64,000 bases of DNA. It comes from Nitrospira sp. (lineage in GTDB: Bacteria; Nitrospirota; Nitrospiria; Nitrospirales; Nitrospiraceae). Shown piece after piece: positions 7,357 through 21,900 of this stretch. Below the pieces are notes generated by a model. That model worked only from the letters and a program-made list of their open reading frames with translations, was not told where the DNA came from and did no database searches. The stretch covers positions 977,001 to 1,041,000 of the forward strand of contig CP054184.1 of assembly GCA_015709715.1 (NCBI GenBank), given 5' to 3'. Position 1 is the first letter of the stretch, and each line of letters starts with the position of its first letter. The translations under genes were made by a program, and so were the position numbers.

Positions 7357-8715
7357 TTATGAATAGGCTCGCTCGTTATGTTGACTGATATCCAATCCCA
7401 TCTGCTCTTCCTCGGGAGTCACACGTAATCCGACCGATTTATCCACGAGGGCGAGAATGGCCCAGGTTCCTATCGCGGAAAACAATGCAACCACGACGAC
7501 CGTCAACACCTGTGCCTCGAAAAACCAGACATTTCCCCGCAGCAGTCCGTCGACGCCATCGGAATTCACCGCCGTAGATGCCAGCATACCGCTCAATAGA
7601 ATCCCCACCACACCGGCAACCCCGTGAATGCCGACCACATCCAGCGAATCGTCGTACCCAAGACGCCCCTTGTTCATGATGGCCATGTACGACAGCCCGC
7701 CCGCAATAAGTCCCATCACGCAGGCGGACAACGGACCGACATACCCCGCTCCCGGCGTCACCATGGCCAAACCGGCGACCGCCCCGCTGGCGATCCCCAG
7801 GACTGTCGGCTTGCCGCGATGCCACCATTCAACCGTCATCCAACTGAGCGCCCCGGTCACGGCGGCCACGTGCGTGGCCACGAACGCGATGATGGCTGTC
7901 TGATTCGCTCCAAGAGCACTGCCCGCGTTGAATCCGAACCACCCGAACCAGAGTAATCCCGTTCCAAGCAACACCATCGGCAGATTGTGCGGCGCCATAT
8001 AATCCGTTCCATATCCGTGCCGGGCCCCGAGCACGAAGGCGCACACAAGGGCGCTCATGCCCGAGCTCAGGTGCACCACCGCTCCGCCCGCAAAGTCCAA
8101 GGCCCCCAGACCGGCCAACCACCCTCCCCCCCAAAGCCAATGGGCGACGGGACAGTAGACGACGAGAGACCAGAGAGCCGAGAACATCAGCACCGCGCTG
8201 AACTTCATCCGCTCGGCGAAGGCGCCGGTGATCAACGCGGGTGTGATTGCCGCGAACATCAGCTGGAACACCATAAAAGCCTGATGAGGGATCGTCGGAC
8301 CGTAGGTCGGATGGGGCATCAAACCCACTCCGCTCAAGCCCATCCAGTCCACACTGCCGATAAGTCCCTTGATGTCGGGACCGAATGCCAGACTGTAACC
8401 GACGAGCACCCAGAGCAAACTGACCACGCAGAGAATCGCGAAGCTCTGCATGGCAGTGCCCAGGACATTCTTGCTGCGCACCAACCCGCCGTAGAACAGG
8501 GCCAAGCCGGGCACGGTCATCGCCAAGACCAATACCGAAGAAATCAGCACCCATGCCGTATCCGGCCCGCTGACCGACAGCGACTGGCCCACCGATGATT
8601 CCGCATGAGCCCAGGCCGGCAGGATCACGCCTGTCGCCAGGGCCGATGCGGCCAGCCTCCGTCCTGCTCCGAAAGGGTTCTTCTTGTGCCGGTCCGTCAT
8701 AAGAACAGTGGGCAT
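7357..8715 (-). CDS. amt: Ammonium transporter Amt2 with signal peptide
   Basis: 452 residues: an N-terminal leader (about 1-38, ending near AWAHA) followed by the eleven-helix Amt fold. Typical segments are present: FYGGLVRSKNV, the QLMFAAIT gate segment, LDFAGGAVVHL with pore Asp and His, GWFGFNAGSAL and GIHGVAG with the second pore His. It imports ammonium (as NH3 plus H+) across the inner membrane. I chose the ATG at 8715, preceded by GGAGG; the frame runs open to 8787 without a better start. The leader RNA at 8735-8822 holds a two-hairpin ANTAR-type element and terminator, so expression is probably controlled by antitermination. Confidence 0.92.
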   Translation of the reverse strand: MPTVLMTDRHKKNPFGAGRRLAASALATGVILPAWAHAESSVGQSLSVSGPDTAWVLISSVLVLAMTVPGLALFYGGLVRSKNVLGTAMQSFAILCVVSLLWVLVGYSLAFGPDIKGLIGSVDWMGLSGVGLMPHPTYGPTIPHQAFMVFQLMFAAITPALITGAFAERMKFSAVLMFSALWSLVVYCPVAHWLWGGGWLAGLGALDFAGGAVVHLSSGMSALVCAFVLGARHGYGTDYMAPHNLPMVLLGTGLLWFGWFGFNAGSALGANQTAIIAFVATHVAAVTGALSWMTVEWWHRGKPTVLGIASGAVAGLAMVTPGAGYVGPLSACVMGLIAGGLSYMAIMNKGRLGYDDSLDVVGIHGVAGVVGILLSGMLASTAVNSDGVDGLLRGNVWFFEAQVLTVVVVALFSAIGTWAILALVDKSVGLRVTPEEEQMGLDISQHNERAYS

Positions 8716-8734
8716 CTCATCCTCCACAAACACA

Positions 8735-8776
8735 AATGGCGTCCGCGATTCCCTATGAAACGCGCCGGACGCCATT
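8735..8776 (-). terminator. Conditional intrinsic terminator before amt2
   Basis: On the transcript an 11-base arm, AAUGGCGUCCG, is perfectly complementary to CGGACGCCAUU, with a 20-base loop between. The sequence UUUGUGUUUGU follows. The left arm is the loop and right arm of the second ANTAR-type hairpin (8766-8781), so the two structures exclude each other. Confidence 0.7.
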
Positions 8777-8822
8777 GTCCGATTCACAGGTATGGGAGCA
8801 ATCGACCTGGACGCCGTTGTCC
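8766..8822 (-). promoter_or_regulatory. Two-hairpin ANTAR-type RNA element in the amt2 leader
   Basis: Hairpin 1 (8809-8822) is GGAC-AACGGC-GUCC, extendable by ACC/GGU after one mismatch. Hairpin 2 (8766-8781) is CGGAC-AAUGGC-GUCCG. Both loops have six bases with A at position 1 and G at position 4, the signature of ANTAR protein targets. The linker is 27 bases, the same as in the element after glnA. Binding should stabilise hairpin 2 and prevent the overlapping terminator, allowing amt2 transcription. No promoter is visible between cynS and this element, so it probably acts on read-through from cynS. Confidence 0.75.
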
Positions 8823-8845
8823 CGGTCTCTTCGCCGAATACCCCT

Positions 8846-9286
8846 TCAGAATGTCTTGTACTCCAGCCACTTGCCGTTCAGCGTGATCTTGCAGCGGGTC
8901 TCGCCCTGGCTGCCGGTTACTTTCTCCATGTCGATGGTGAAGTCGATCGCGCTCATGATGCCGTCGCCGAACAGTTCATTGGCCATCTCCCGCAGTGCGT
9001 CGCCGTACACGCCGATCACCTCCAGCAGCCGATACTTGAAGGGATCGACGGTAATCGGAAAGTCCGCGCGCACGGGAAAGCGACTCAACGCAGCGATCTG
9101 CTCCTTGTCCAAATCCAGCAGGCTTCCGACCTTCAACGCCTCGTCGGGAGAGAGGCGATGGTTGCCGTTCAACGCCGCCGCCACAAAGGTCGGGCTCTTC
9201 CCGACCGACTCGGCGACCTGCGCGATGGTGATTTTCCTGTTCGTCCGTTGCGCCTTGATTGCCTCGCACATTGCGTCCTTTTCCAT
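8846..9286 (-). CDS. cynS: Cyanase (cyanate hydratase)
   Basis: 146 residues, about ten shorter than E. coli CynS but complete. It has an N-terminal helix-turn-helix-like dimerisation part (about 1-70) and the C-terminal catalytic domain. The three catalytic residues are identifiable as R86 and E89 (in KYRLLEVIGVYG) and S112 (in GIMSAIDF), offset by ten from E. coli Arg96/Glu99/Ser122. It converts cyanate plus bicarbonate to ammonia and CO2, giving nitrogen for assimilation; in nitrite oxidisers the ammonia may also feed ammonia-oxidising partners. AGGAGG precedes the ATG. Its leader holds a terminator overlapping an ANTAR-type hairpin. Confidence 0.95.
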   Translation of the reverse strand: MEKDAMCEAIKAQRTNRKITIAQVAESVGKSPTFVAAALNGNHRLSPDEALKVGSLLDLDKEQIAALSRFPVRADFPITVDPFKYRLLEVIGVYGDALREMANELFGDGIMSAIDFTIDMEKVTGSQGETRCKITLNGKWLEYKTF

Positions 9287-9319
9287 CGTGACCTCCTGTG
9301 AAAGATGCGCGCTCGGGTC

Positions 9320-9358
9320 AAAAAAAACGTCCTCATCCCGATGACGGGAAGAGGACGT
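9320..9358 (-). terminator. Conditional intrinsic terminator in the cynS leader
   Basis: The transcript forms a 14-bp stem (ACGUCCUCUUCCCG against CGGGAUGAGGACGU, one U-U mismatch) with a UCAU loop, followed by eight U. It ends about 30 bases before the cynS start. The left arm includes the GUCC arm of the ANTAR-type hairpin at 9352-9368, making the structures mutually exclusive. Confidence 0.85.
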
Positions 9359-9393
9359 CGATGTCCCTGGTTACAAGGCTCCCAGTGCCTTGT
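9352..9393 (-). promoter_or_regulatory. ANTAR-type two-hairpin element, cynS proximal
   Basis: Hairpin 2 (core 9353-9366) is GGAC-AUCGAC-GUCC with A1 and G4 in a six-base loop. Hairpin 1 (9373-9393) has a seven-base-pair stem, ACAAGGC/GCCUUGU, with the loop ACUGGGA. That loop has A1 and G4 but seven bases, so it is not a textbook match. The linker between hairpins is only about five bases. Hairpin 2 shares its right arm with the strong terminator at 9320-9358. This is the second such element between glnA and cynS. Confidence 0.6.
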
Positions 9394-9431
9394 CTGATGT
9401 CGGTGCCGACGACCACGTCGGCTGCAAATAA

Positions 9432-9471
9432 AAAGGCGTCCGCCACTCCCGAAAGAATGACGGACGCCTTT
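9432..9471 (-). terminator. Intrinsic terminator downstream of glnA
   Basis: A 17-bp stem on the transcript (arms 9455-9471 and 9432-9448, two G-U pairs) with a short UUUCGG loop is followed by UUUUUAUUU. It would end the glnA message. Its left arm begins inside the loop of the ANTAR-type hairpin at 9460-9477, so it may be conditional and gate read-through into cynS. Confidence 0.88.
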
Positions 9472-9520
9472 GTCCGTGTACCCGTTGTGGTGCGGAGTTC
9501 AGATCAGGCGCCGTTGCCTG
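9460..9520 (-). promoter_or_regulatory. ANTAR-type two-hairpin element between glnA and cynS
   Basis: Hairpin 1 (9505-9520) is CAGGC-AACGGC-GCCUG. Hairpin 2 (9460-9477) is ACGGAC-AAAGGC-GUCCGU. Both have six-base loops with A1 and G4. The linker is 27 bases, matching the amt2 element. The loop and right arm of hairpin 2 form the left arm of the terminator at 9432-9471. The arrangement fits control of glnA to cynS read-through by an ANTAR protein. The rest of 9287-9594 holds the cynS-proximal element and a short GCCGACG/CGUCGGC hairpin near 9403-9423; no coding sequence is seen. Confidence 0.75.
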
Positions 9521-9594
9521 GGCTCATCCGCAGGGACTACCTATACCATCCTCTCCGTTCGGCCGTCAAGCGCCCGCAACGAAGAAGGCGGCTG

Positions 9595-11004
9595 CTACAC
9601 GTCGTAATACAGAAAGAACTCGTACGGATGCGGCCGCAGACGCATCGTATCGACTTCCTTGGCGCGCTTATACCCGATCCAGGCCTCGATCAAATCCTCA
9701 CTGAACACCCCGCCCTTGAGCAGGAATTGATAATCCTTCTCCAAGTGGCTGAGGGCCTCGTCCAAGCTGCCCGGCATGGTCCGAATCTTGGCCGCTTCCT
9801 TGGCCTCGAGATCGTAGAGGTCCTTCTCTGCTGGCTCGCCCGGATTAATCTTGTTTTCGATGCCGTCCAAACCCGCCATGAGCATGGCGGAGAAGGCCAA
9901 GTAGGGATTGGCCGCAGGGTCCGGGAATCGGACTTCGATGCGCTTCGCCTTGGGGCTCGGTGAGTACATCGGAATGCGGATGCCCGCCGACCGGTTACGG
10001 CTGGAATAGGCCAGCAACACCGGCGCTTCGAAGCCCGGCGTCAACCGCTTGTATGAATTGGTCGAGGGGTTGGTAAAGGCTGCCAACGCCGGAGCATGTT
10101 TCAAGATGCCGCCGATGTAATGCAGGCAGAGCTGCGACACGCCGGCGTATTCCTTCCCCGCGAACAGCGGCTTGCCGTCCTTCCAGATGCTCTGGTGGGT
10201 ATGCATGCCGGACCCGTTGTCGCCGAAGATCGGCTTCGGCATGAAGGTCACGGTCTTGCCATGGCGCCGTGCCACGTTCTTGACGATGTACTTGAACATC
10301 ATCATCTTGTCCGCCGTGCGCACGAGGCTGTCGAACCGAATGTCGATTTCCGCCTGGCCTGCCGTCGCCACTTCATGGTGATGCTTTTCAGTGGCGATGC
10401 CCGCCTTTTCCATTTCGAGGACCATCTCGGTCCGGATGTCCTGCTGCGTGTCGGTCGGTGCCACCGGGAAGTAGCCTTCCTTGTGACGGATCTTGCCGCC
10501 CAGGTTGACGCCCTCTTGCCCCATGTTCCACACGCCCTCGTCGGAATCGATGTAGTAGTAGGCACTGTGGTTCGTCTGATCATAACGGGCATGGTCGAAG
10601 ATGAAGAATTCCGCTTCCGGCCCCCAATAGGAGGTATCGCCAATTTTCGTGCTCTGCAGATACTTCTCTGCTTTCTGCGCGATATACCGCGGATCGCGGT
10701 CGTACATCTCACGGGTGATCGGGTCGACGACGTTGCCGATGAGGCTCAGCGTCGGTACGGAACAAAAGGGATCCATACAGGCGGTGGCGGGGTCCGGAAT
10801 CAGCAGCATGTCGCTGTTGTTGATCGCCCTCCAGCCGCGGATCGACGAGCCGTCGAGGCCGGAGCCGTCCTTGAACAACCCTTCCGTCAGTTCACTGACG
10901 GGAACGGTGAAATGCTGCCAGGTCCCGATCAGGTCGACAAACTTCAAATCCACGACCTGGACCTTATTCTTCTTGGCCATCTCTAAGACTTCGCGAACGT
11001 TCAT
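9595..11004 (-). CDS. glnA: Glutamine synthetase type I
   Basis: 469 residues, the usual GSI-beta length. It makes glutamine from glutamate, ammonium and ATP in a cytoplasmic dodecamer. Visible signatures include DGSSIRGW near the N-terminus, [10 protein letters not shown], the [12 protein letters not shown] region of the active site, [10 protein letters not shown] and the adenylylation-loop Tyr in [10 protein letters not shown]. That Tyr implies control by adenylylation, which glnB and glnD here could feed. The ATG at 11004 has GGAGGAGGGGG upstream. It is the last gene of a glnB-glnD-glnA run and is followed by a terminator overlapped by an ANTAR-type hairpin. Confidence 0.97.
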
Positions 11005-11054: not shown

Positions 11055-13739
11055 CTATGCTGCATCCACAGTGAGAAACGCTTCGATCTTGCCGAGAATC
11101 CCCGCGCGCACCGCTTCCAGACGAACCGGATCGTCGATCTTCGTGCCGCCCTCCGCAGTCACATAAAACACGTCTGCCACCTGGTCCAATCTGGTGGAAA
11201 TACGCGAGGCGTGAACCGACAACCCCAGCTGGAAGATAGCGTTGGTGATGACGAAGAGCAACCCCTGCCGGTCCTCCGCGAATACATCCAAGATGGTGAA
11301 GCGGTCGGACGTTTCATTGTCGATCCGCACCTCCGCAGGCTGCCGATGGACCGGGAGTGATCGGCCCATATTGAGCCTGGATCCGCGTCGCATCACCGAC
11401 TCGATCGACTGGCGCCCCGTCAAGACCTCCGTAATCGTGTCGGCAATCGACTCTCGCCGTTCGGCGGGCGGAGCCCCCTGATAATCCGGATCGGTCACCT
11501 GGAAGGTATCGACCGCCACGCCATCCTGTCGCGTCACGATCTGCGCGTCGAGAATCTGCAACCCGCTCGCCGCCATGACCCCGGCGATCTTGGAGAACAG
11601 CCCGGGAATTAGGTCGTCATGCGCCACCACGGCGTATTCGCACGTACCCAGGTCGGCATGAAATTCCGTGTCAATCACCACCCCCCCCGGCTGGAGACGA
11701 CGAATCGCGGTCAGATGGGCGGCGATGCGCCGCGGCGCGGTGCCAGAGAGGTAGCGTGGAGGAAACTGTTCCAACTCCCCACGAATCCACCTGTCGTCCT
11801 CCGGCAAGTCCGTCACCGCTTCCCGTTGGTGCATCACCTCGGTAGCAACCCTGGCCAGGCGTTCCGGCCCATCGGCCCTGTCTCGTTCGCCGGACACCTC
11901 CTGCATGGCGCGGCCGTACAGCTCCACGAGCAACGATTCCTTCCACTTGGTCAACACATCCGGGCCAACGGCGGCAATGTCGGCAGCGGTCAAGGCCAAG
12001 AGCTTGCGCAAGACTTCCGGCGTACCCACCTCACGGACAAACGGCCGCAACACCTTCTCGTCGTACGGGTCGCGCCGAAAGGCCGTATGGGCCATGAGCA
12101 GATGCCGATGTACGAGAAACATCAACGTCGCGCGCTCGCGCTCATCGAAACCGAGGCGCGCCGCCGTCTCTTCCGCCAGTCGCTTGCCGACTTCGCTATG
12201 GTCTTCCTCATGTCCCTTTCCCAAATCATGCAATAGCACGGCGAGATGGAGGAGGTCCTTTCGCTTGATCTCCCGATAGACTTCGCCCAGCGCGCCCTGA
12301 TGCTCCGCTAATGCCTCGGCCTTGCCGACAGCCAGCAGGCTATGCTCATCGACCGTGTACTTGTGGTACTGGTTGAACTGCATGAGGCCCCGTACGCGTG
12401 AGAACGCGGGCACCAACTTTTCCAACAGGTGGGCGCGATGCATCGCCTCCAAGGTCCGCGCCGTGCCCGGTCCCGCCAGGATCGACATGAACGTGCGGCC
12501 GACTTCCGGCGTATGGAATCGTTCGGGCGACAGCGTTTCCGCATGGCGATGGATGTCTTCCAGCAACGAGGGATCGATGTTCAAATTGCGCGACCGAGCC
12601 AGGTCGAACAAAGTCACCAAGGCTGCCGGTTGGGCCAACACCTGCGCACGCGATTCCTTCGGCACGGTCAAGGCTTCATCCTCGACGAGAAAGTGCCGAT
12701 CAATCTTCGTCGCCGGCCTCCACCGGCTCAAACGCTGCCACACAGAACGACGGCGACAACGATCGACGAACCGCATCGACGCGACGTGCAGCCCCATCGT
12801 ATGCCGATAGTATTGCTGCATGAACTGCTCGACGGCGAGCAGATGGGGCCGATCGGTGAAGCCCCAATGCTGCGCTAACCACACCTGATCGTCGAACGTC
12901 AGAATCTCCTGCGCCATTCCCGCCCGAACATGGAGGCAGGCGCGCACGCGCAAGAGAAACTCCCTCGCGTCCTTGATCGTGTGATAGTCCACCGGAGACA
13001 GGATGCCACGGTCGGAGAGTTCGCGAATCGTCGGTGCGTGATAACGTGCAGCCCCGATCCATTGGAGGAGATGCAGATCGCGCAGTCCTCCCTTGCTTTT
13101 TTTGACGTTGGGCTCCAACAGATACACGGTCTCGCCGAACTTCTGATACTCCCGCTGCCGTTCCGTAACTTTCTGCTCCAAATAGGCGTCGAACCCGGTG
13201 GAGACGACCTTGTGAGCGTAGCGGGCATGGAACTGCTGGAACAGCTCGGCGCTCCCGGCGAGGAACCGCGCCTCCATCATGGAGGTACGCACGGTCAGAT
13301 CGGCCAACCCCAATTCCACGCAATCCTGAATCGTCCGTACGCTGTGCCCGACTTGAAATCCGCTGTCCCACAGGGGATGGAGCACCTGCTTCACCAGGTC
13401 GGGCATCGCCTTGGCCGCGTCCGGATGGAACAGGAACATGAGATCGATGTCCGAATGGGGCGCCAATTCCCGGCGCCCATAGCCCCCCAGCGCGACCAGG
13501 CAACAATGGTGAAACCCGACCGTCGTGAGGCCTTCACCGCCGGCTCGCGCCGCGGTGCGATACCGTCCGATGATCAACCCGTCGACAAGGTCGGTGGTGG
13601 CGTTCACCACTTCATCGCCGGAGGCTCCAGCCAACAAGCGCTGCTGAATCGCCTGCCGCTGTTCGGCAAGAAGGTCGGCCGGCAGCAACGCTCCCGCTTC
13701 ATGCAACAAGGGCGACCCCGCATCCAACGCGTGCGACAT
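11055..13739 (-). CDS. glnD: Bifunctional uridylyltransferase/uridylyl-removing enzyme of PII
   Basis: 894 residues in the expected order. The nucleotidyltransferase domain has [20 protein letters not shown] (about 90-110). The HD hydrolase domain has [13 protein letters not shown] (mid-protein). Two ACT domains lie at the C-terminus (about 700-780 and 815-890). The enzyme uridylylates PII when glutamine is low and removes UMP when it is high. Start and stop nearly abut glnB (two bases between), so glnB and glnD are co-transcribed and probably translationally coupled. Confidence 0.96.
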
Positions 13740-13741
13740 GG

Positions 13742-14089
<348 letters not shown>

Positions 14090-14125: not shown

Positions 14126-15454
14126 TCACGAATAGGCCCGTTCGTTATGCTGACTCAAATCGAGGCCGGTGGCTTCTTCCTCCGAGGACACTCGGAGCCC
14201 CGTCAGAGAATCGACCAGTTTGAGGATGGCGAAGGTGCCGATGACCGTGAAGGCCGCCGTAACCAACGCGACAAGGAGTTGGACGCCCAGGAAACCGGGA
14301 TTCCCGAACAACAACCCGTCGGCTCCGCTTGGGTTGACGGCCTTATCCGCAAAAAGCCCGGTGGCCACGATCCCGATCACCCCCCCGACCCCGTGGATCC
14401 CCACGACGTCAAGCGAGTCATCATAGCCGAATCGCCCCTTCCAAACAATCGCGCCATAACAGGCCAGGCCGGCGACCGCACCGATCAGAATGCCGAACAA
14501 GGGGCTGATGTAGCCGGCTGCCGCCGTCACCGTCGCCAGCCCTGCCACGGCGCCGCTCGCGACGCCCAACACGGTCGGCTTCCCACGGTGAGCCCACTCG
14601 GCTCCGCACCAAGCCATCGCCCCGGTGGCCGCGGCCACATGGGTGGCGATAATAGCCGACACCGCCACGCTATTGGCCCCCAACGCGCTTCCACCATTGA
14701 AACCGAACCAGCCGAACCAGAGGAACCCTGTCCCAAGCAGCGTCATCGGCAAATTGTGCGGTGCCATGTAGTCGGTACCGTATCCCCGCCGCTGCCCCAG
14801 CACGAGGGCACAGACCAGTGCCGCAGCTCCGGAGCTGATGTGAATCACCGCGCCCCCGGCAAAATCCAACGCACCCAGCTTAGCCAGCCAACCGCCGCCC
14901 CATATCCAATGGGCCAGCGGCACGTAGACCAGCAGGGACCACAGGGCCGCAAACAGCACCACTGAGGTGAAGCGCTTACGCTCCGCGAAGGCGCCGGTAA
15001 TCAAGGCGGGTGAGATGGCCGCGAACATCAATTGAAACAACATAAAGGCCTGGTGCGGAATAGTTGGGGCATAAACCGGATGCGGTTCGGCCCCGACGCC
15101 CCTGAGCCCGATCCAGTCCAACCCGCCGATCATACCGCCCTGATCGGGACCGAAGGCCAGACTGTACCCCACCAAGATCCAGAGGACACTCACGACGCTG
15201 AGAATGATCATGCTCTGCATGATCGTCCCCAGGACGTTCTTGCTCCTGACCAACCCCCCGTAAAACAGCGCCAAGCCCGGCACGAGCATCGCCAGCACGA
15301 ACGCCGAGGATATCAACACCCACGCCGTATCTCCCGTATCGACCTTGAGCGGTGCACTCTGTGCATAGGCCTGCGCCGCCCCGAAGGCCGAGCCCATCAA
15401 GAGTCCCACTGTCACGCCCGCGACCACCGTTCCCCGTTGCGCCGGTACGTTCAC
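14126..15454 (-). CDS. amt: Ammonium transporter Amt3 with signal peptide
   Basis: 442 residues: a cleavable leader (about 1-32) and an eleven-helix Amt core very like Amt2 (FYGGLVRSKNVLGT, QLMFAAISPALI, LDFAGGAVIHI, GWFGFNGGSALGA, GIHGVGG). Pore His and Asp residues and the Phe gate are kept, so it should be a conventional ammonium channel under PII control. The start is GTG at 15454, with AAGGAGG just upstream. An 11-bp hairpin lies just before that site and its left arm is also complementary to the ribosome-binding site. Confidence 0.94.
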   Translation of the reverse strand: MNVPAQRGTVVAGVTVGLLMGSAFGAAQAYAQSAPLKVDTGDTAWVLISSAFVLAMLVPGLALFYGGLVRSKNVLGTIMQSMIILSVVSVLWILVGYSLAFGPDQGGMIGGLDWIGLRGVGAEPHPVYAPTIPHQAFMLFQLMFAAISPALITGAFAERKRFTSVVLFAALWSLLVYVPLAHWIWGGGWLAKLGALDFAGGAVIHISSGAAALVCALVLGQRRGYGTDYMAPHNLPMTLLGTGFLWFGWFGFNGGSALGANSVAVSAIIATHVAAATGAMAWCGAEWAHRGKPTVLGVASGAVAGLATVTAAAGYISPLFGILIGAVAGLACYGAIVWKGRFGYDDSLDVVGIHGVGGVIGIVATGLFADKAVNPSGADGLLFGNPGFLGVQLLVALVTAAFTVIGTFAILKLVDSLTGLRVSSEEEATGLDLSQHNERAYS

Positions 15455-15532: not shown

Positions 15533-16411
15533 CTAGAACGTCTTCGTAAATTTCAACTTATAGAAATCTTGATTGTCTGTCAGGTCTTTTCCGGCCGTGA
15601 ACCGGAAGGCCATGCCGCCCGGCAGTTTCATCTCCACATAGGGACCGATCCAGCGGTAGTAGTCTTGAGCGGCACCGGGTGCGCTGCTGTCGCGAGTGGT
15701 CAGCAAATGTTCGTAATGCACGCCGCCGGACCACAGGCTGTTCAGCCTGACTCCACCGCTCACCCAGTAGTGCAGGAAGTCCCAGGTGCCCCGACCACCG
15801 GCTTGGCTGGCCCCCAAGCAGTTGGTATCGACCAGGCCCGAACAGCCGACCGCGCCGCCGCCTCCGCTGCCCCCCTCGCTCCGAATGGCTTTGTAGTAGC
15901 CTAGGTAGAACTCGCCCTCGAACCGGTTGTCGATATAATTCGCGATGATGTTGGGCACGAATCCTTCGAAGGCCGTCGTGCGCTCATTGACGCTGCCGCC
16001 GCCGTTCGGGAAGAAGCCGCCGCGCGAGGAAAGCAGGCTGCCATGCACGAAGCCGATCATCGGCGTTACGGACAATCGCTTCTCCAGAAAGGTGAGATTC
16101 AGCCCCATATCGGTTTCGAGCCATGGGGCATTGTCATGGACGCCCACGCCGTTGATCATCGTCCAATAGGTGAAATTGAACGCCAACGCAATGTCGTCGG
16201 TGAGCCCGTACGTCCCATAAATGGATGGATTGAACCCGAAGAAACTGTCGGCCTGCATCGCCATGGTGACGGATACGGGATGTTTGGTCGTATCCATCAG
16301 GTCGTCCGTCGTCCCGGCCCGCGATTCACCCACCGCGCCGCCCCATCCGCTTACCATCACCGCCAGCCCCACTACCCACACCCGTACCCGTTGCCCGACC
16401 ATCATATCCAT
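15533..16411 (-). CDS. Outer-membrane beta-barrel protein of unknown substrate
   Basis: 292 residues with an N-terminal signal peptide (about 1-33, ending near GESRAG). Alternating hydrophobic/polar strands rich in Tyr, Phe, Trp and Gly follow. The C-terminus ends FYKLKFTKTF with a terminal Phe, typical of barrel assembly. A Gly-rich loop with two cysteines (GCSGLVDTNC) lies near 190-200. I do not recognise a named family. The next gene is amt3, 78 bases downstream, so a role as a porin for nitrogen compounds is possible but unproven. The start is ATG at 16411 with GGAGG four bases upstream. The leader has paired ANTAR-type hairpins. Confidence 0.75.
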   Translation of the reverse strand: MDMMVGQRVRVWVVGLAVMVSGWGGAVGESRAGTTDDLMDTTKHPVSVTMAMQADSFFGFNPSIYGTYGLTDDIALAFNFTYWTMINGVGVHDNAPWLETDMGLNLTFLEKRLSVTPMIGFVHGSLLSSRGGFFPNGGGSVNERTTAFEGFVPNIIANYIDNRFEGEFYLGYYKAIRSEGGSGGGGAVGCSGLVDTNCLGASQAGGRGTWDFLHYWVSGGVRLNSLWSGGVHYEHLLTTRDSSAPGAAQDYYRWIGPYVEMKLPGGMAFRFTAGKDLTDNQDFYKLKFTKTF

Positions 16412-16486
16412 GGCGCCTCCAAGAGATTGCGTAAAGGTGACTCCGCTCGAGGCTTTCGTCCCGACGGATCTGCCTGCCCTGTCTCT

Positions 16487-16527
16487 CTGGCGCCATTGCC
16501 AGCCCTGATGACCGACGCCGTTGTCGG
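16487..16527 (-). promoter_or_regulatory. ANTAR-type two-hairpin element upstream of the outer-membrane barrel gene
   Basis: Hairpin 1 (16512-16527) is CCGAC-AACGGC-GUCGG and hairpin 2 (16487-16502) is CUGGC-AAUGGC-GCCAG. Both have five-base-pair stems and six-base loops with A1 and G4. The linker is nine bases. No terminator follows. Instead AUGGCGCC in hairpin 2 is perfectly complementary to GGCGCCAU, which covers the end of the ribosome-binding site and the first two bases of the start codon (16410-16417). This suggests a switch on translation rather than on transcription. Confidence 0.7.
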
Positions 16528-16542
16528 CCGTTGCCCATTCGA

Positions 16543-18315
16543 CTATCGATACCCATTCGTAATTGGCATACGCCGATCCTTCCCAAACGCCCGATAGGTA
16601 ATCTTGATACCCAACGGGGCTTGGCGTCGCTTGTATTCGCTCCGATCGACCATCGCGATCACTCGCGCGACCGTCGCTTGATCGAACCCCATCGCCACGA
16701 TGTCCTCCGGGCCACGATCTTCCTCCACGTAAGCCTTCAGAATGGGATCCAGCACTGCGTAAGGCGGGAGGCTGTCTTCATCCTTTTGATCCGGGCGCAA
16801 TTCCGCCGTGGGCGCCCGTTCCAGAATGCGTTTCGGAATCACCGGGATCGCTCCCTGCGCGTTCCGTCGGTGCGACAGCTCGTAGACCATGGTCTTCGGC
16901 ACATCCTTGATCACCGCAAACCCGCCGGCCATGTCGCCATACAGCGTCGCATACCCAACGCTCATCTCGCTCTTGTTGCCGGTCGTCAGGACCAAGTGGC
17001 CGAACTTGTTGGAATAGGCCATGAGAAGGTTGCCCCGGATGCGGGCCTGCAAATTCTCCTCCGTCGCGTCTGGCCGATGGCCCTTGAAGGACTTGGCTAA
17101 CGTGCGCAGATAACTCTTGAAGGTCGAGGTAATCGAGAGAGTGTCGACTTGGATATGGAGACGCCGGCCCAGGTCGGCCACATCCTCCCGACTGGCCCGC
17201 GAGGTATAGGGCGACGGCATAAACACGCCCAACACGTTGTCCGCCCCGAGAGCATCCACGGCGATGGCCGCCGTCAGCGCGGAATCCACTCCGCCGCTCA
17301 AACCGATGACGACTCGCTTGAACCCATTCTTGCGCACATAATCCTGCACGCCCAAGACCAGCGCACGGTAGGCTTCATCCACGCGGTCCAGGTGAGACTC
17401 CAAGGCCGGAACGATGATGGAACGCGATTTCCTGGCCGGCAGTCGCAACTCGATGCGATCGATCAACGATGCCACGCGAGGCGGCAGGCTCCGTTTGCGA
17501 CCGGCCGCTAAGCGAGCACGCCCCACGGCGGCGACATCCAAGTCCGCGATGAGCAGATCCTCCTGAAAGGCCTTCCCTCGGGCCAGGATGGCGCCACTGT
17601 GGTCCACAATCAAGCTTCCCCCGTCGAAGACCAACTCATCCTGTCCGCCGACCGTATTGGTATAGGTCACGATCACGCGATTGTCCCGCGCTCGCGTGGC
17701 CAACATCTGTTCCCGAATCACCCCCTTGCCCATATGAAAGGGCGAGGCATTGATGTTGATGATGACCTCGGCACCGGCCGCCGCCTGCAGCCTCGTCGGG
17801 CCCTCCGGAAACCAGATGTCTTCGCAGATGTTCACGCCGATCGTCGTGCCGTTCAGCACCAACAAGGGGAGTCGTTGCCCCGGACGAAAATAGCGACTTT
17901 CGTCGAACACGCCGTAATTGGGCAGGTGCCGCTTGCCGTAGCTCGCGGCGATCCGGCGCTCGCAGAGGACGGCGGCGGCATTGTACAAATCATGGCGCCC
18001 GGTGGTTTGCAGCGAGGTTGGATGCTCTCCACCCGAGGCCGTAACCGTTTCCCGGCCTACGTATCCGACGATCACCGCCACCCCTCTGGCTTCGGCGGCA
18101 ACAGCTTGCAAAGCCCGCGCGGTGTCATCGATAAAGCGCGGCTTGAAGAGCAGGTCTTCAGGAGGATAGCCGGTGATGGCGAGTTCAGGAAATGCCACGA
18201 GGTCGGCCTGCGCTTGGCGGGCTTGGCGAATCCAGGTCACGATGCGGCGAACATTCCCCGAGAGGTCTCCGACCGTCGGATTCATTTGAGCCATGGCAAT
18301 TCTACAAACGCGCAT
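16543..18315 (-). CDS. nadE: Glutamine-dependent NAD+ synthetase
   Basis: 590 residues, two domains. The N-terminal nitrilase-type glutaminase has the catalytic triad E44 (FPELAITGY), K128 (YGKRHLPNYG) and C164 (GVNICEDIWF). The C-terminal ATP-pyrophosphatase synthetase has the P-loop LSGGVDSALTAA (about 339-350). It amidates nicotinic acid adenine dinucleotide to NAD+ using glutamine nitrogen. The ATG at 18315 is chosen for the GGGAG upstream. A strong promoter and a 140-base leader with a two-hairpin ANTAR-type element and terminator precede it, tying NAD synthesis to the same control as cynS and amt2. Confidence 0.96.
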   Translation of the reverse strand: MRVCRIAMAQMNPTVGDLSGNVRRIVTWIRQARQAQADLVAFPELAITGYPPEDLLFKPRFIDDTARALQAVAAEARGVAVIVGYVGRETVTASGGEHPTSLQTTGRHDLYNAAAVLCERRIAASYGKRHLPNYGVFDESRYFRPGQRLPLLVLNGTTIGVNICEDIWFPEGPTRLQAAAGAEVIININASPFHMGKGVIREQMLATRARDNRVIVTYTNTVGGQDELVFDGGSLIVDHSGAILARGKAFQEDLLIADLDVAAVGRARLAAGRKRSLPPRVASLIDRIELRLPARKSRSIIVPALESHLDRVDEAYRALVLGVQDYVRKNGFKRVVIGLSGGVDSALTAAIAVDALGADNVLGVFMPSPYTSRASREDVADLGRRLHIQVDTLSITSTFKSYLRTLAKSFKGHRPDATEENLQARIRGNLLMAYSNKFGHLVLTTGNKSEMSVGYATLYGDMAGGFAVIKDVPKTMVYELSHRRNAQGAIPVIPKRILERAPTAELRPDQKDEDSLPPYAVLDPILKAYVEEDRGPEDIVAMGFDQATVARVIAMVDRSEYKRRQAPLGIKITYRAFGKDRRMPITNGYR

Positions 18316-18365: not shown

Positions 18366-18409
18366 AAAAAAAAACGCCCTCAGACCCATCACCTTGGATC
18401 GGAGGACGT
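18366..18409 (-). terminator. Conditional intrinsic terminator in the nadE leader
   Basis: A 14-position stem on the transcript (ACGUCCUCCGAUCC with GGGUCUGAGGGCGU, one mismatch, two G-U pairs) with an eight-base loop is followed by nine U. The left arm includes the GUCC arm of the ANTAR-type hairpin at 18404-18417. It sits 50 bases before the nadE start, so it would block nadE unless antiterminated. Confidence 0.85.
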
Positions 18410-18452
18410 CGTTGTCCGTTCGATGACTAGTCGGAGACTCCATTGTCCCCGA
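18404..18452 (-). promoter_or_regulatory. ANTAR-type two-hairpin element in the nadE leader
   Basis: Hairpin 1 (18431-18452) is an eight-base-pair stem, UCGGGGAC/GUCUCCGA, with loop AAUGGA. Hairpin 2 (18404-18417) is GGAC-AACGAC-GUCC. Both six-base loops have A1 and G4. The linker is 13 bases. The right arm of hairpin 2 is the left arm of the following terminator. The order promoter, hairpin 1, hairpin 2/terminator, gene is the textbook layout for ANTAR-mediated antitermination. Confidence 0.82.
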
Positions 18453-18464
18453 AAAACGACCGCA

Positions 18465-18494
18465 TGTATACCACTGGCCCGAACCAGCTGTCAA
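18465..18494 (-). promoter_or_regulatory. Sigma-70 promoter of nadE
   Basis: TTGACA (18489-18494), an 18-base spacer and TATACA (18465-18470). Transcription should start near 18458, giving a leader of about 140 bases that begins just before the first ANTAR-type hairpin. Confidence 0.8.
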
Positions 18495-18578: not shown

Positions 18579-19430
18579 ATGTGGCCGAAGTTCACATTGC
18601 CCATAGTTCTCACCTCTCTGGTCATCAGCGCCTGCAGCGCTCTATCAACCATGCCCCCTATCGGACAGGGTCCGCTGGGAACTGTGGCGCTGGAACGCGT
18701 GTCTATCCGAGGCACGACTGCCAGGTATAGCACCCCCCAAGCTTTTCACGCGTCCCATCCGGCCACCATTTCACCTTCCGTTACAGCCCGGCTGTTGACA
18801 GGCCTGACGATTTCAGGTCTTGACGGGCCACATCGAACTACGGGACCAGACACCTTTCCCTTATTCTCGCAAGAGGAAGTGGAGTTCCTCGCCCCGCTCG
18901 TCTCGGCCGCTTTTCATCAGGCACAGCCCGATCAGCGCATCACCTTTATGGTGAAAGACGATGGGATGACAACACAAGGCTATCTCTTCGCATATCACAC
19001 GACGATCCAAGTCGCTCTTGTCCACTACCGAACCGCCCCCACAGCGAACAGCCGCTCTCGGCAGCCAACCCTCTCGTTCACTCCAGGCGAGGCGCTCGTC
19101 CGGCTCGATCCTCCAGAACCTTGGATGGTGACTGAACCGGAATGGCCTCGTGTGGCGATCGCGGTCGAGGCCTTACATCGGCGTGCCCCGTCTCCCGCGC
19201 CTATGACGGAGCCGACACCGGCGAAAATCTCGCATGAAGGGGAGCAACAACGCCTTCAACAGGAACTACAGGCGACCAAGGACTTGGTCGTCAAACAGGC
19301 GGAGGAGTTACAACAGTTGAAAGAGGAGCTCGACACTTTACGTCGGCAGAGATCTGAAAAGCCTTCTGCCCCACCCAAGACCACACCAAAAGCAGGGCAA
19401 CGCAAGCCAGCAGCTACACCGACACCTTGA
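18579..19430 (+). CDS. Conserved-looking lipoprotein of unknown function
   Basis: The only plus-strand gene in the window. It has 283 residues: a signal peptide with a lipobox (LVISACS, lipidated Cys at 19), a globular middle (about 25-200), then a Glu/Gln/Leu-rich coiled coil (about 210-260, QQLKEELDTLRRQ) and a basic Pro/Ala/Lys tail. This suggests an envelope-anchored protein with an extended C-terminus. No family is recognised. TAGAAT (18564-18569) lies only nine bases before the ATG and no ribosome-binding site is seen, so the message may be nearly leaderless. It is divergent from nadE and convergent with the ANTAR gene. Confidence 0.7.
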   Translation: MWPKFTLPIVLTSLVISACSALSTMPPIGQGPLGTVALERVSIRGTTARYSTPQAFHASHPATISPSVTARLLTGLTISGLDGPHRTTGPDTFPLFSQEEVEFLAPLVSAAFHQAQPDQRITFMVKDDGMTTQGYLFAYHTTIQVALVHYRTAPTANSRSRQPTLSFTPGEALVRLDPPEPWMVTEPEWPRVAIAVEALHRRAPSPAPMTEPTPAKISHEGEQQRLQQELQATKDLVVKQAEELQQLKEELDTLRRQRSEKPSAPPKTTPKAGQRKPAATPTP

Positions 19431-19471: not shown

Positions 19472-20737
19472 TCAGGAACCCGTTCGCTTTTTATCCGCTC
19501 GCTCTTCGATTTCTCCTGCCAAGAGAATGGCCTCGGCAATTTCCCGCATCGATTTACGAAGGTCCATACTCTGCCGCTGAATCAATTTGAATGCCTCGTC
19601 TTCCGAGAGCCGCTTGGACCGCATCAGATAACCCTTAGCGCGGTCCAGGAGTTTGCGCACCTGCAGTGCCTCCTGCATCTCAAACGACTTCTCCAGCAGC
19701 GTCGTGTGTTCAATGGAGATGGCGGCTTGATTGGCAATCGCCTGCATCAATTTCACATCCTCCGTGGTGAACGTGCGAGGTTTGGAGGTGTAGGTATTGA
19801 TGACTCCGATCGCCTTTTCACGGACCAGCATCGGGACGCACAACAAGGAACAGAGCCCTTCTTTGGCCGCCATGTCAGGATAGACATACGTACTTTCCGT
19901 GGTGACATCCGGCACGATGATTGGCCGACGCTCCTGGACTGCGCGTCCGCTGATGCTCTGACCGATCTTCACATTGGGCTTACGTCGATATTGTTCACTC
20001 AGACTTTGTGTCGCTGCAATGCGCAGTTCGCCTGTCGCCTGATCGAGGAGAATGATGGAGCAGATTTTGGACCCCATCATTTGGGCGGTCATCGTCACGA
20101 TCAGCTGCAACACGTCTTCGATCAGCCGGTTGGAAGAAACCGTTTCCGATACCTGTGACAAGGTCTCGAGTTGAAGCGCTTTGCGAGTCATTTGATCGTA
20201 CAGCCGGGCGTTCTCGATGGCCCCTCCGACCTGGGTCGCAATCGTGGACAACAACGCCAATTCGTCGGGACGGTATCGTCGCGGTCGTTTGTGCTGAGCA
20301 TTGATGACTCCGACGACTTCCTGCTTGGTCGTGATGGGAACGGAGACGAACGCCTGATACCGGTCTTCCGGCAGGTTATGGAAAAACTTGAATCGGGGGT
20401 CGTCGCTGGCGCTATTCGGGATAACGACTCGCGTTCTTTCGCGGGCTACCCAGCCGGTAATTCCTTCTCCCCATCCGATCGTAATGCGGCCGATCAACTT
20501 GGGATGGGGATTCTTTGAAGCTCGTAGAATGAGTTCATCGCGGTTGTCAGATAGTAAGTAGAGCAGACAGGCATCAGCCTTAGTCACCTCCACTACCATA
20601 TCGACGATGTGACGCAGGACGGCTTCCAGATCGAGCGTATTGCTGATCGACTCGCTGATGCGATGCAAGACATCGACTTCTCGCGTTTTCTCGCGAAGGG
20701 CTTGCTCCAATTGAGATACCGTCCGTTTCGCCGTCAT
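19472..20737 (-). CDS. GAF-GAF-ANTAR antitermination regulator
   Basis: 421 residues. A short coiled N-terminus (1-25) precedes two GAF sensor domains (about 28-180 and 195-350). A C-terminal ANTAR RNA-binding domain follows (about 352-408), recognisable by VRKLLDRAKGYLMRSKR, LSEDEAFKLIQRQSMDLR and SMREIAEAILLAG. ANTAR domains bind paired hairpins with A-N-N-G-N-N hexaloops and prevent termination. There is no receiver domain, so the GAF domains probably bind a small molecule or partner. The ATG at 20737 has AGGAG upstream, and aroB ends eight bases before, so the two share an operon. The leaders of nadE, cynS and amt2 carry matching RNA elements. Confidence 0.9.
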   Translation of the reverse strand: MTAKRTVSQLEQALREKTREVDVLHRISESISNTLDLEAVLRHIVDMVVEVTKADACLLYLLSDNRDELILRASKNPHPKLIGRITIGWGEGITGWVARERTRVVIPNSASDDPRFKFFHNLPEDRYQAFVSVPITTKQEVVGVINAQHKRPRRYRPDELALLSTIATQVGGAIENARLYDQMTRKALQLETLSQVSETVSSNRLIEDVLQLIVTMTAQMMGSKICSIILLDQATGELRIAATQSLSEQYRRKPNVKIGQSISGRAVQERRPIIVPDVTTESTYVYPDMAAKEGLCSLLCVPMLVREKAIGVINTYTSKPRTFTTEDVKLMQAIANQAAISIEHTTLLEKSFEMQEALQVRKLLDRAKGYLMRSKRLSEDEAFKLIQRQSMDLRKSMREIAEAILLAGEIEERADKKRTGS

Positions 20738-20745
20738 GAAGGCTC

Positions 20746-21900
20746 CTACCGGCCTGGCCCTTGAAGTTGATTCGCCAACTTTCTCCGCTGTGGCGCTCGC
20801 TTCCCGTCGAACCAGGCACGCACGCGCTGCTTCTCTAGCGGCACGACTTGTACCGTTCCGATTTGCGTCGGCACCACGCAATAGACCGTTCCGGACGAGA
20901 CCTTCTTATCTTGCCGCATGGCCGTCCATAATGCACCGAACGTCATCGGCGGCATCTGAACCGGCAACCCCGCCTTGGCGACGAGGGCCTGCAAGCGAGT
21001 GACTACTTCTTCGCTGCAGTAACCGAGATGCCTGGCCAAATCTGCCTCGCAGACCATTCCAATCGCCACCGCTTCCCCGTGGATCAGTCCACGATACCCG
21101 CCGATGGCTTCCAACGCATGCCCGATCGTATGTCCAAAGTTCAGGATCCTTCGTCGATCGGCTTCACGCTCGTCGGCTGCCACGACCTCTGCCTTAATTT
21201 CGCAGGAGCGTTTCACGATCCGCGTTATCGCCTGCTCGTCGAGTGCAAGAATCGCTTCCATGTTGTGTTCAAGATACCGAAAGAAAGGCTCATCGGCGAT
21301 CACTCCATACTTAATCACCTCGGCTAAGCCGGCAATCTTTTCCCGGATCGGCAAGGTCTCCAGCGTGACAGGATCAATCAGCACGGCACGAGGCTGGTTG
21401 AATGCACCGATCAAATTCTTGCCCTTGGCGTGATCCACTCCGGTCTTCCCTCCGACACTTGAATCGACTTGGGCCACCAGGCTGGTGGGCACCTGGACAA
21501 AGGGGATTCCGCGTTGGTAGATCGCCGCAGAAAATCCGGTTATATCTCCGATGACGCCGCCACCCAGCGCCAGTAATGTCGAAGCACGTTCGAACTTTTC
21601 AGCAACGAGCACATCCATGATCGTGGCAATCGTACGAAGCGTCTTCGTTCGCTCCCCTGGAGGCAAGACGATCGGAATAACGTGATACCCGGCTGCCTTC
21701 AATACCCGGCGAGCCAGTTGCAGGTAGTGCTTCGCGAGATTTCGATCGGTCACAATGCCGATCTTCCCGCTGCAGCCAACTCGTTGGAGTTCCGTCCCGA
21801 GGGCGCGAAGCAGATAACGCTGGATGATGATCGGATAACTCCGTTCGCCTAATTCGACAGGGATGGTTTCCTGCGGCACCTCACGCACACGTGTTCTCAT
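20746..21900 (-). CDS. aroB: 3-dehydroquinate synthase
   Basis: 384 residues. It converts DAHP to 3-dehydroquinate, the second shikimate step, using NAD+ and a metal. Signatures: GGGVIGDITGFSAAIYQRGIPF, PTSLVAQVDSSVGGKTGVDH, NLIGAF, the metal-binding LNFGHTIGHALE and the IHGEAV motif. The length fits the family. The ATG at 21900 has GGAGAG upstream; the longer frame to 21978 lacks support. It is followed directly by the ANTAR regulator gene. The promoter at 22149-22178 lies about 240 bases upstream of the start, so the leader is long. Confidence 0.95.
   Translation of the reverse strand: MRTRVREVPQETIPVELGERSYPIIIQRYLLRALGTELQRVGCSGKIGIVTDRNLAKHYLQLARRVLKAAGYHVIPIVLPPGERTKTLRTIATIMDVLVAEKFERASTLLALGGGVIGDITGFSAAIYQRGIPFVQVPTSLVAQVDSSVGGKTGVDHAKGKNLIGAFNQPRAVLIDPVTLETLPIREKIAGLAEVIKYGVIADEPFFRYLEHNMEAILALDEQAITRIVKRSCEIKAEVVAADEREADRRRILNFGHTIGHALEAIGGYRGLIHGEAVAIGMVCEADLARHLGYCSEEVVTRLQALVAKAGLPVQMPPMTFGALWTAMRQDKKVSSGTVYCVVPTQIGTVQVVPLEKQRVRAWFDGKRAPQRRKLANQLQGPGR

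Follow-up and report, generated by a model that had tools for sequence, protein, structure and literature searches.

The described systems closest to the locus analysed here are the eut leaders of Enterococcus faecalis with their regulator EutV, and the nasF leader of Klebsiella with its regulator NasR. According to the parts of PMC3369931 and PMC8934654 that deal with them, the eut leaders contain two hairpins with A1/G4 hexaloops, of which the second overlaps an intrinsic terminator, and several such leaders occur in one gene cluster; both traits recur at the Nitrospira locus. EutV is a phosphorylated REC-ANTAR protein, whereas the Nitrospira regulator is a GAF-GAF-ANTAR protein from the phylum Nitrospirota, whose predicted targets, nadE and nitrogen assimilation genes, are unlike those of the eut system. 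The nasF/NasR system, as presented in the relevant parts of PMC3369931 and PMC7496416, shares with the Nitrospira locus a one-component regulator, a role in nitrogen metabolism, positive antitermination and an A1/G4 hexaloop. NasR, in the same accounts, senses nitrate by its own sensor domain, whereas the Nitrospira protein has two GAF domains and, unlike in the nasF/NasR system, its predicted target is not nitrate reductase. Several leaders per genome in front of nitrogen genes, as found here, were also predicted for the ANTAR nitrogen regulons of Desulfotomaculum and Pelobacter in the corresponding part of PMC3369931.

Among the ANTAR targets listed in the main text of this 2012 survey (PMC3369931) are genes for PII, ammonium transporter and glutamine synthase; nadE, cyanase (cynS) and Nitrospira are not named in that main text. 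The literature searched agrees with the statement, made in a sequence-only reading of this DNA, that NAD synthetase is not usually targeted by ANTAR proteins. Gene islands that join nadE with a PII gene, as at this locus, occur widely, also in Nitrospirae, and the activity of NadE is under PII control (PMC7196632); the control described there is a protein-protein control of enzyme activity, without leader RNA or ANTAR protein. In searches of the open-access literature no work on a Nitrospira ANTAR regulon was found, nor any report linking ANTAR to Nitrospira or to NAD synthetase, which is weak evidence of novelty. The predicted mechanism is a known one (EutV/NasR leaders), while nadE appears to be an unreported target, with a putative leader that is conserved order-wide.

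Structure of the nadE leader

In the 64,000-nucleotide stretch of DNA that was analysed (the window), nadE is located on the minus strand at 16543..18315, with its ATG at 18315. Its 590-residue product, assigned by Pfam, comprises a CN_hydrolase domain (7e-42) and an NAD_synthase domain (1.5e-75) in one chain, and by this predicted domain architecture the enzyme is a glutamine-dependent NAD+ synthetase. The region upstream of the gene very probably constitutes an ANTAR-type transcription-antitermination leader run by a GAF-GAF-ANTAR protein.

Reading towards nadE on the minus strand, the leader displays a -35 element (TTGACA, 18489..18494; exact in 48 of 53 relatives) and, after an 18-nt spacer, a -10 element (TATACA, 18465..18470), both recognised from the sequence. 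These are followed by hairpin 1 (P1, 18431..18452), defined by sequence, folding and covariation, which has eight pairs and the A1/G4 hexaloop AAUGGA (CGGGGAC-AAUGGA-GUCUCCG), and by hairpin 2 (P2 or antiterminator hairpin, 18404..18417), defined by sequence and folding, which has four pairs and the A1/G4 hexaloop AACGAC (GGAC-AACGAC-GUCC). An intrinsic terminator stem-loop of 12 pairs and one mismatch (18375..18408), predicted by folding and covariation, reads CGUCCUCcGAUCC ... GGGUCuGAGGGCG and is succeeded by a U tract of nine T (18366..18374) that ends at 18366. The promoter, hairpin 1, hairpin 2, the overlapping terminator, the nine U and nadE are all present in the order and within the 180 bases given by the sequence-only reading, this distance being the span from the first -35 base to the A of the nadE ATG.

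The 3' arm of hairpin 2 (GUCC) is contained in the 5' arm of the terminator (CGUCC...), and because GUCC is common to both, the two structures are mutually exclusive. The calculated folding energies are -10.0 kcal/mol for hairpin 1, -4.0 kcal/mol for hairpin 2 alone and -19.9 kcal/mol for the terminator. Forcing hairpin 2 to form shifts the energy of the full leader from -38.2 to -29.5 kcal/mol, a cost of about 9 kcal/mol, and termination is therefore the predicted default unless hairpin 2 is held. The whole leader folds with a z-score of -2.6 compared with shuffles.

Judged by its conservation, the predicted promoter of the leader is real. Within the 110 nt before hairpin 1, the best -35/-10 match has 1-3 mismatches out of 12 in 53/53 leader-bearing relatives, as against 4-7 mismatches out of 12 in control stretches further upstream in the same relatives, and in 51 of the 53 the -10 element ends 18-27 nt ahead of the loop of hairpin 1. 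A stock promoter/terminator scanner with fixed rules called neither the promoter nor the terminator of the leader, the promoter being missed because this scanner demands T as the last base of the -10 element. Transcription is predicted to start at about 18459-18457 (approximately 18458).

The ANTAR protein and the proposed mechanism

The GAF-GAF-ANTAR protein, which is the proposed antiterminator, is encoded on the minus strand at 19472..20881 (Pfam, ANTAR E 7e-20), 1.2 kb upstream of nadE and with one divergent gene between them; it carries the one and only ANTAR domain of the source genome (4.16 Mb, one contig). The RNA-contact residues of EutV have been described, with Tyr164 stacking on loop G4 (PMC8934654). 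Alignment of the two proteins shows that R142, K143, K149, E160, M172 and R175 of EutV are identical in the Nitrospira protein, that Y164, N173 and K147 are replaced by Phe, Asp and Arg, respectively, and that R168 and R177 are replaced by Gln and Ser. Most, but not all, RNA-contact residues of EutV (PMC8934654) are retained in the ANTAR domain of the Nitrospira protein, two contacts being different.

Within the antitermination reading we infer RNA binding, termination, read-through, the operon and the activating signal. RNA polymerase would start at about 18458 and transcribe the region of hairpins 1 and 2; by default it would stop at the terminator, with the U9 end at 18366, and release a leader transcript some 90 nt long. 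The active GAF-GAF-ANTAR protein would bind the A1/G4 hexaloops of both hairpins and keep hairpin 2 closed, which would deprive the terminator of its 5' arm. Transcription would then read through into nadE and most likely beyond it, across porin-amtB-glnK-glnD-glnA, the nitrogen-assimilation core. The activating signal is presumably nitrogen status, sensed via the GAF domains.

Conservation of the leader among relatives

Among 147 Nitrospiraceae genomes, nadE is present in 134 and an ANTAR domain in 99. Upstream DNA was compared for 110 nadE genes (84 from genomes with an ANTAR domain and 26 from genomes lacking it), 30 diverse leaders were aligned, and two covariance models were built, one of which is named R2. 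Four pairs of hairpin 1 and six pairs of the terminator have changed on both sides in the 30-leader alignment, and the covariation scores of these two structures were reached by 0/500 shuffles. Hairpin 2, with 100% of cells paired in the 30 relatives, is nearly invariant and shows little covariation, as expected because one sequence serves two structures. In the alignment G4 is invariant in both loops, and some other genera have G at position 1 of hairpin 2. A1/G4 was built into the search pattern used for hairpin 1 and was not strictly required by the covariance-model searches. The hairpin 2 loop GAUGAC (G1), found in several genera (L040, L057, L064, L089 and others), departs from the A1 rule and could also close to a tetraloop.

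Model R2 detected a leader before nadE in 58/84 ANTAR-bearing versus 0/26 ANTAR-lacking Nitrospiraceae (Fisher 4e-11, a value that overstates independence because the species are related and the counts are inflated by kinship). This count replaces that of a regular expression (53/84), which had missed five divergent or decayed leaders. When any leader in the genome is considered, 96/99 ANTAR-bearing versus 9/48 ANTAR-lacking genomes have at least one; most of these nine genomes are incomplete, only G087 and G137 being near-complete. In G087, which has no detectable ANTAR domain, one strong leader match is located on L276 (2328-2425, reverse-complement coordinates), and the 1.3 kb downstream of it show no obvious gene.

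Many genera keep the order ANTAR-leader-nadE, as does the sister family, where nadE identity falls to 52%, and the predicted leader is conserved across the order Nitrospirales. The presence of an ANTAR antitermination leader before a glutamine-dependent nadE, as proposed from the letters of the window, is strongly supported by its anatomy, the mutual exclusivity of hairpin 2 and terminator, covariation, ANTAR co-occurrence and synteny over two families. In genus g10, which has kept its ANTAR gene, the leader before nadE has disappeared from nearly every member; decayed remnants of the leader are visible in L085 and L063 (genomes G065 and G071).

The nitrogen cluster behind nadE

On the minus strand, nadE is followed by a gene for a DUF6733 outer-membrane-type protein (15533..16411; Pfam DUF6733), for which 'porin' is used as a working name, and then by the ammonium transporter gene amtB (14126..15454), a PII gene (glnK/glnB, 13742..14080), glnD encoding PII uridylyltransferase (11055..13739) and glnA encoding glutamine synthetase (9595..11004), the latter assigned by its reading frame and sequence and 83-96% identical in relatives. 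The gaps in this co-directional series nadE-porin-amtB-glnK-glnD-glnA measure 132, 79, 46, 2 and 50 nt, and those of them that were scanned on the minus strand gave no terminator or promoter match. Most likely, the leader would also open the nitrogen genes behind nadE in the window, co-transcription being suggested by the spacing. The common order in 40 mapped relatives is aroB - ANTAR - [leader] - nadE - (porin) - amtB - glnK - glnD - glnA - [leader(s)] - cynS - [leader] - amtB2.

The company of nitrogen genes in which nadE is found is accounted for by the PII-nadE islands and by the control of NadE through PII (PMC7196632). The glutamine demand of the enzyme, which had been offered as a reason for its place in a nitrogen regulon, is compatible with the targeting of nadE and not needed for it; it is probably not the main reason, and the place of nadE as first gene of the nitrogen cluster probably explains the targeting better.

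Alternative explanations

The stem-loop ahead of nadE is strong on its own (-19.9 kcal/mol), as would be expected of an ordinary intrinsic terminator, for instance of an upstream transcript, beside which the hexaloops would be coincidental. This explanation is highly improbable: the upstream neighbour (18579-19430) lies on the plus strand, divergent from nadE, so that the leader terminator is not the 3' end of that gene, and a plain terminator of the upstream gene was dropped on this ground. Moreover, a conserved promoter precedes the hairpin 1 loop by 18-27 nt, and the hexaloops are kept in some 20 genera and missing where there is no ANTAR gene (before nadE: 0/26). A geometric scan for two A1/G4 hexaloop hairpins with an overlapping terminator and a T-run found two places in the 64-kb window and none in 40 dinucleotide-preserving shuffles of it; a chance origin of the leader was likewise dropped. 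A metabolite riboswitch, responding for example to NAD+, in place of a protein-controlled leader would suit the position before an NAD biosynthesis gene and the use of a terminator; we consider it extremely improbable, since a search of the leader against Rfam gave no family at gathering score and a permissive search returned a best match at chance level on the other strand. The same structure, furthermore, is located ahead of cynS and amtB genes, which NAD would not explain, and tracks the ANTAR gene; an NAD riboswitch was dropped as well.

A different question is how far the leader reaches, as it might govern essentially nadE and the next gene, with the genes from amtB to glnA having promoters of their own. 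Several rearranged loci speak for this: in G075 and G061 some 10 kb separate nadE from the amtB unit, and each of the two is preceded by a leader; in the UBC2-type comammox genome G069, where no amtB unit lies closer than 13 kb to nadE-porin, this pair has retained its leader. The sister family (L142, L147, L149, L156, L158, L159, L162, L168; nadE 52-60% identical) retains the block aroB-ANTAR-[leader]-nadE, mostly with glnD directly behind it and without adjoining amtB or PII; the U tract of some members reaches into the nadE start codon. Such a restricted reach is nevertheless unlikely for the locus in the window, where, as in most genera, the genes of the cluster are closely spaced and run in one direction, and in genus g10 and the basal g6 the leader is found ahead of amtB and has been lost from nadE. 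Antitermination extending from nadE into the nitrogen genes is the reading we prefer, and nadE would be an old target in its own right, because the sister family keeps ANTAR-[leader]-nadE and the dissected loci keep the leader.

A second hexaloop pair in the nadE-porin spacer

Between nadE and the porin gene there is another pair of hairpins with A1/G4 hexaloops, this one without a terminator (minus strand, 16487..16529; hairpins at 16529-16510 and 16502-16487). The pair is conserved in 21 genomes, with the loops 25 nt apart in nearly all of them and one compensatory change. The sequence of the porin Shine-Dalgarno and start codon, GGAGGCGCCAUG (minus strand, 16409..16420), is complementary to AUGGCGCC of the second spacer hairpin, and this complementarity of AUGGCGCC to GGCGYCAU of the porin ribosome-binding site/start is found in 20/21 genomes; in the G101 lineage the spacer hairpin is without complementarity to the porin start. 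Minimum-energy folds use the pairing between second hairpin and porin start in three of four genomes. Across the 21 genomes the pairing shows no covariation, and it is for that reason treated here as hypothetical. It is conceivable, if somewhat doubtful, that the ANTAR protein controls the nadE-porin transcript twice, by antitermination and by opening porin translation, AUGGCGCC of the second hairpin otherwise pairing with the porin start.

The actinobacterial ANTAR RNAs, which overlap ribosome-binding sites, likewise have two hexaloops close to a start codon and for the most part lack a terminator (PMC8164766). In these RNAs the bound protein represses translation (PMC8164766), whereas the Nitrospira spacer would predict activation on binding.

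Other leaders in the genome and the predicted regulon

With the leader DNA as blast query no copies were found elsewhere in the genome, and further leaders were therefore sought by covariance model. The genome-wide search with both models identified four credible leaders, all other matches being at noise level, in agreement with model scans of the window alone: one before nadE, two before cynS and one before a second amtB, all on the minus strand within 12.2 kb. The second leader (9428..9525), first of the tandem before cynS, has the loops AACGGC and AAAGGC, a terminator and T5; the third (9319..9426), second of the tandem, has the loop AUCGAC, a terminator and T8, with cynS starting at 9286. 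The fourth leader (8728..8828), before the second amtB, has the loops AACGGC and AAUGGC, a terminator and a weak T-run (AUUUGUGUUU). The open frame of the second amtB (7357-8787) overlaps this fourth leader, and the true start of the gene is probably located just after it. Leaders in relatives are also found ahead of a formate/nitrite-type transporter beside cynS and ahead of an outer-membrane-type protein of 456 residues that is encoded near the ANTAR gene, both identified by sequence only. Tandem leaders between glnA and cynS recur at the same place in many relatives.

The regulon predicted here would establish, at the RNA level, a connection between nitrogen status and the supply of NAD, beside the published link between PII and NadE at the protein level (PMC7196632). 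It is compact, with one regulator, four leaders and one gene cluster, and would span the uptake of ammonium, the use of cyanate, PII signalling and the synthesis of glutamine and NAD.

Nitrifying Nitrospira do not lend themselves easily to manipulation. One lineage in which the regulator, the leaders, amtB and glnD have been lost jointly from the cluster may serve as a natural experiment. In the five ANTAR-lacking g6 genomes mapped at length (L247, L248, L249, L271, L272), aroB-nadE-glnK-glnA remain, and the cluster has lost the ANTAR gene, the leaders, amtB and glnD as a set.
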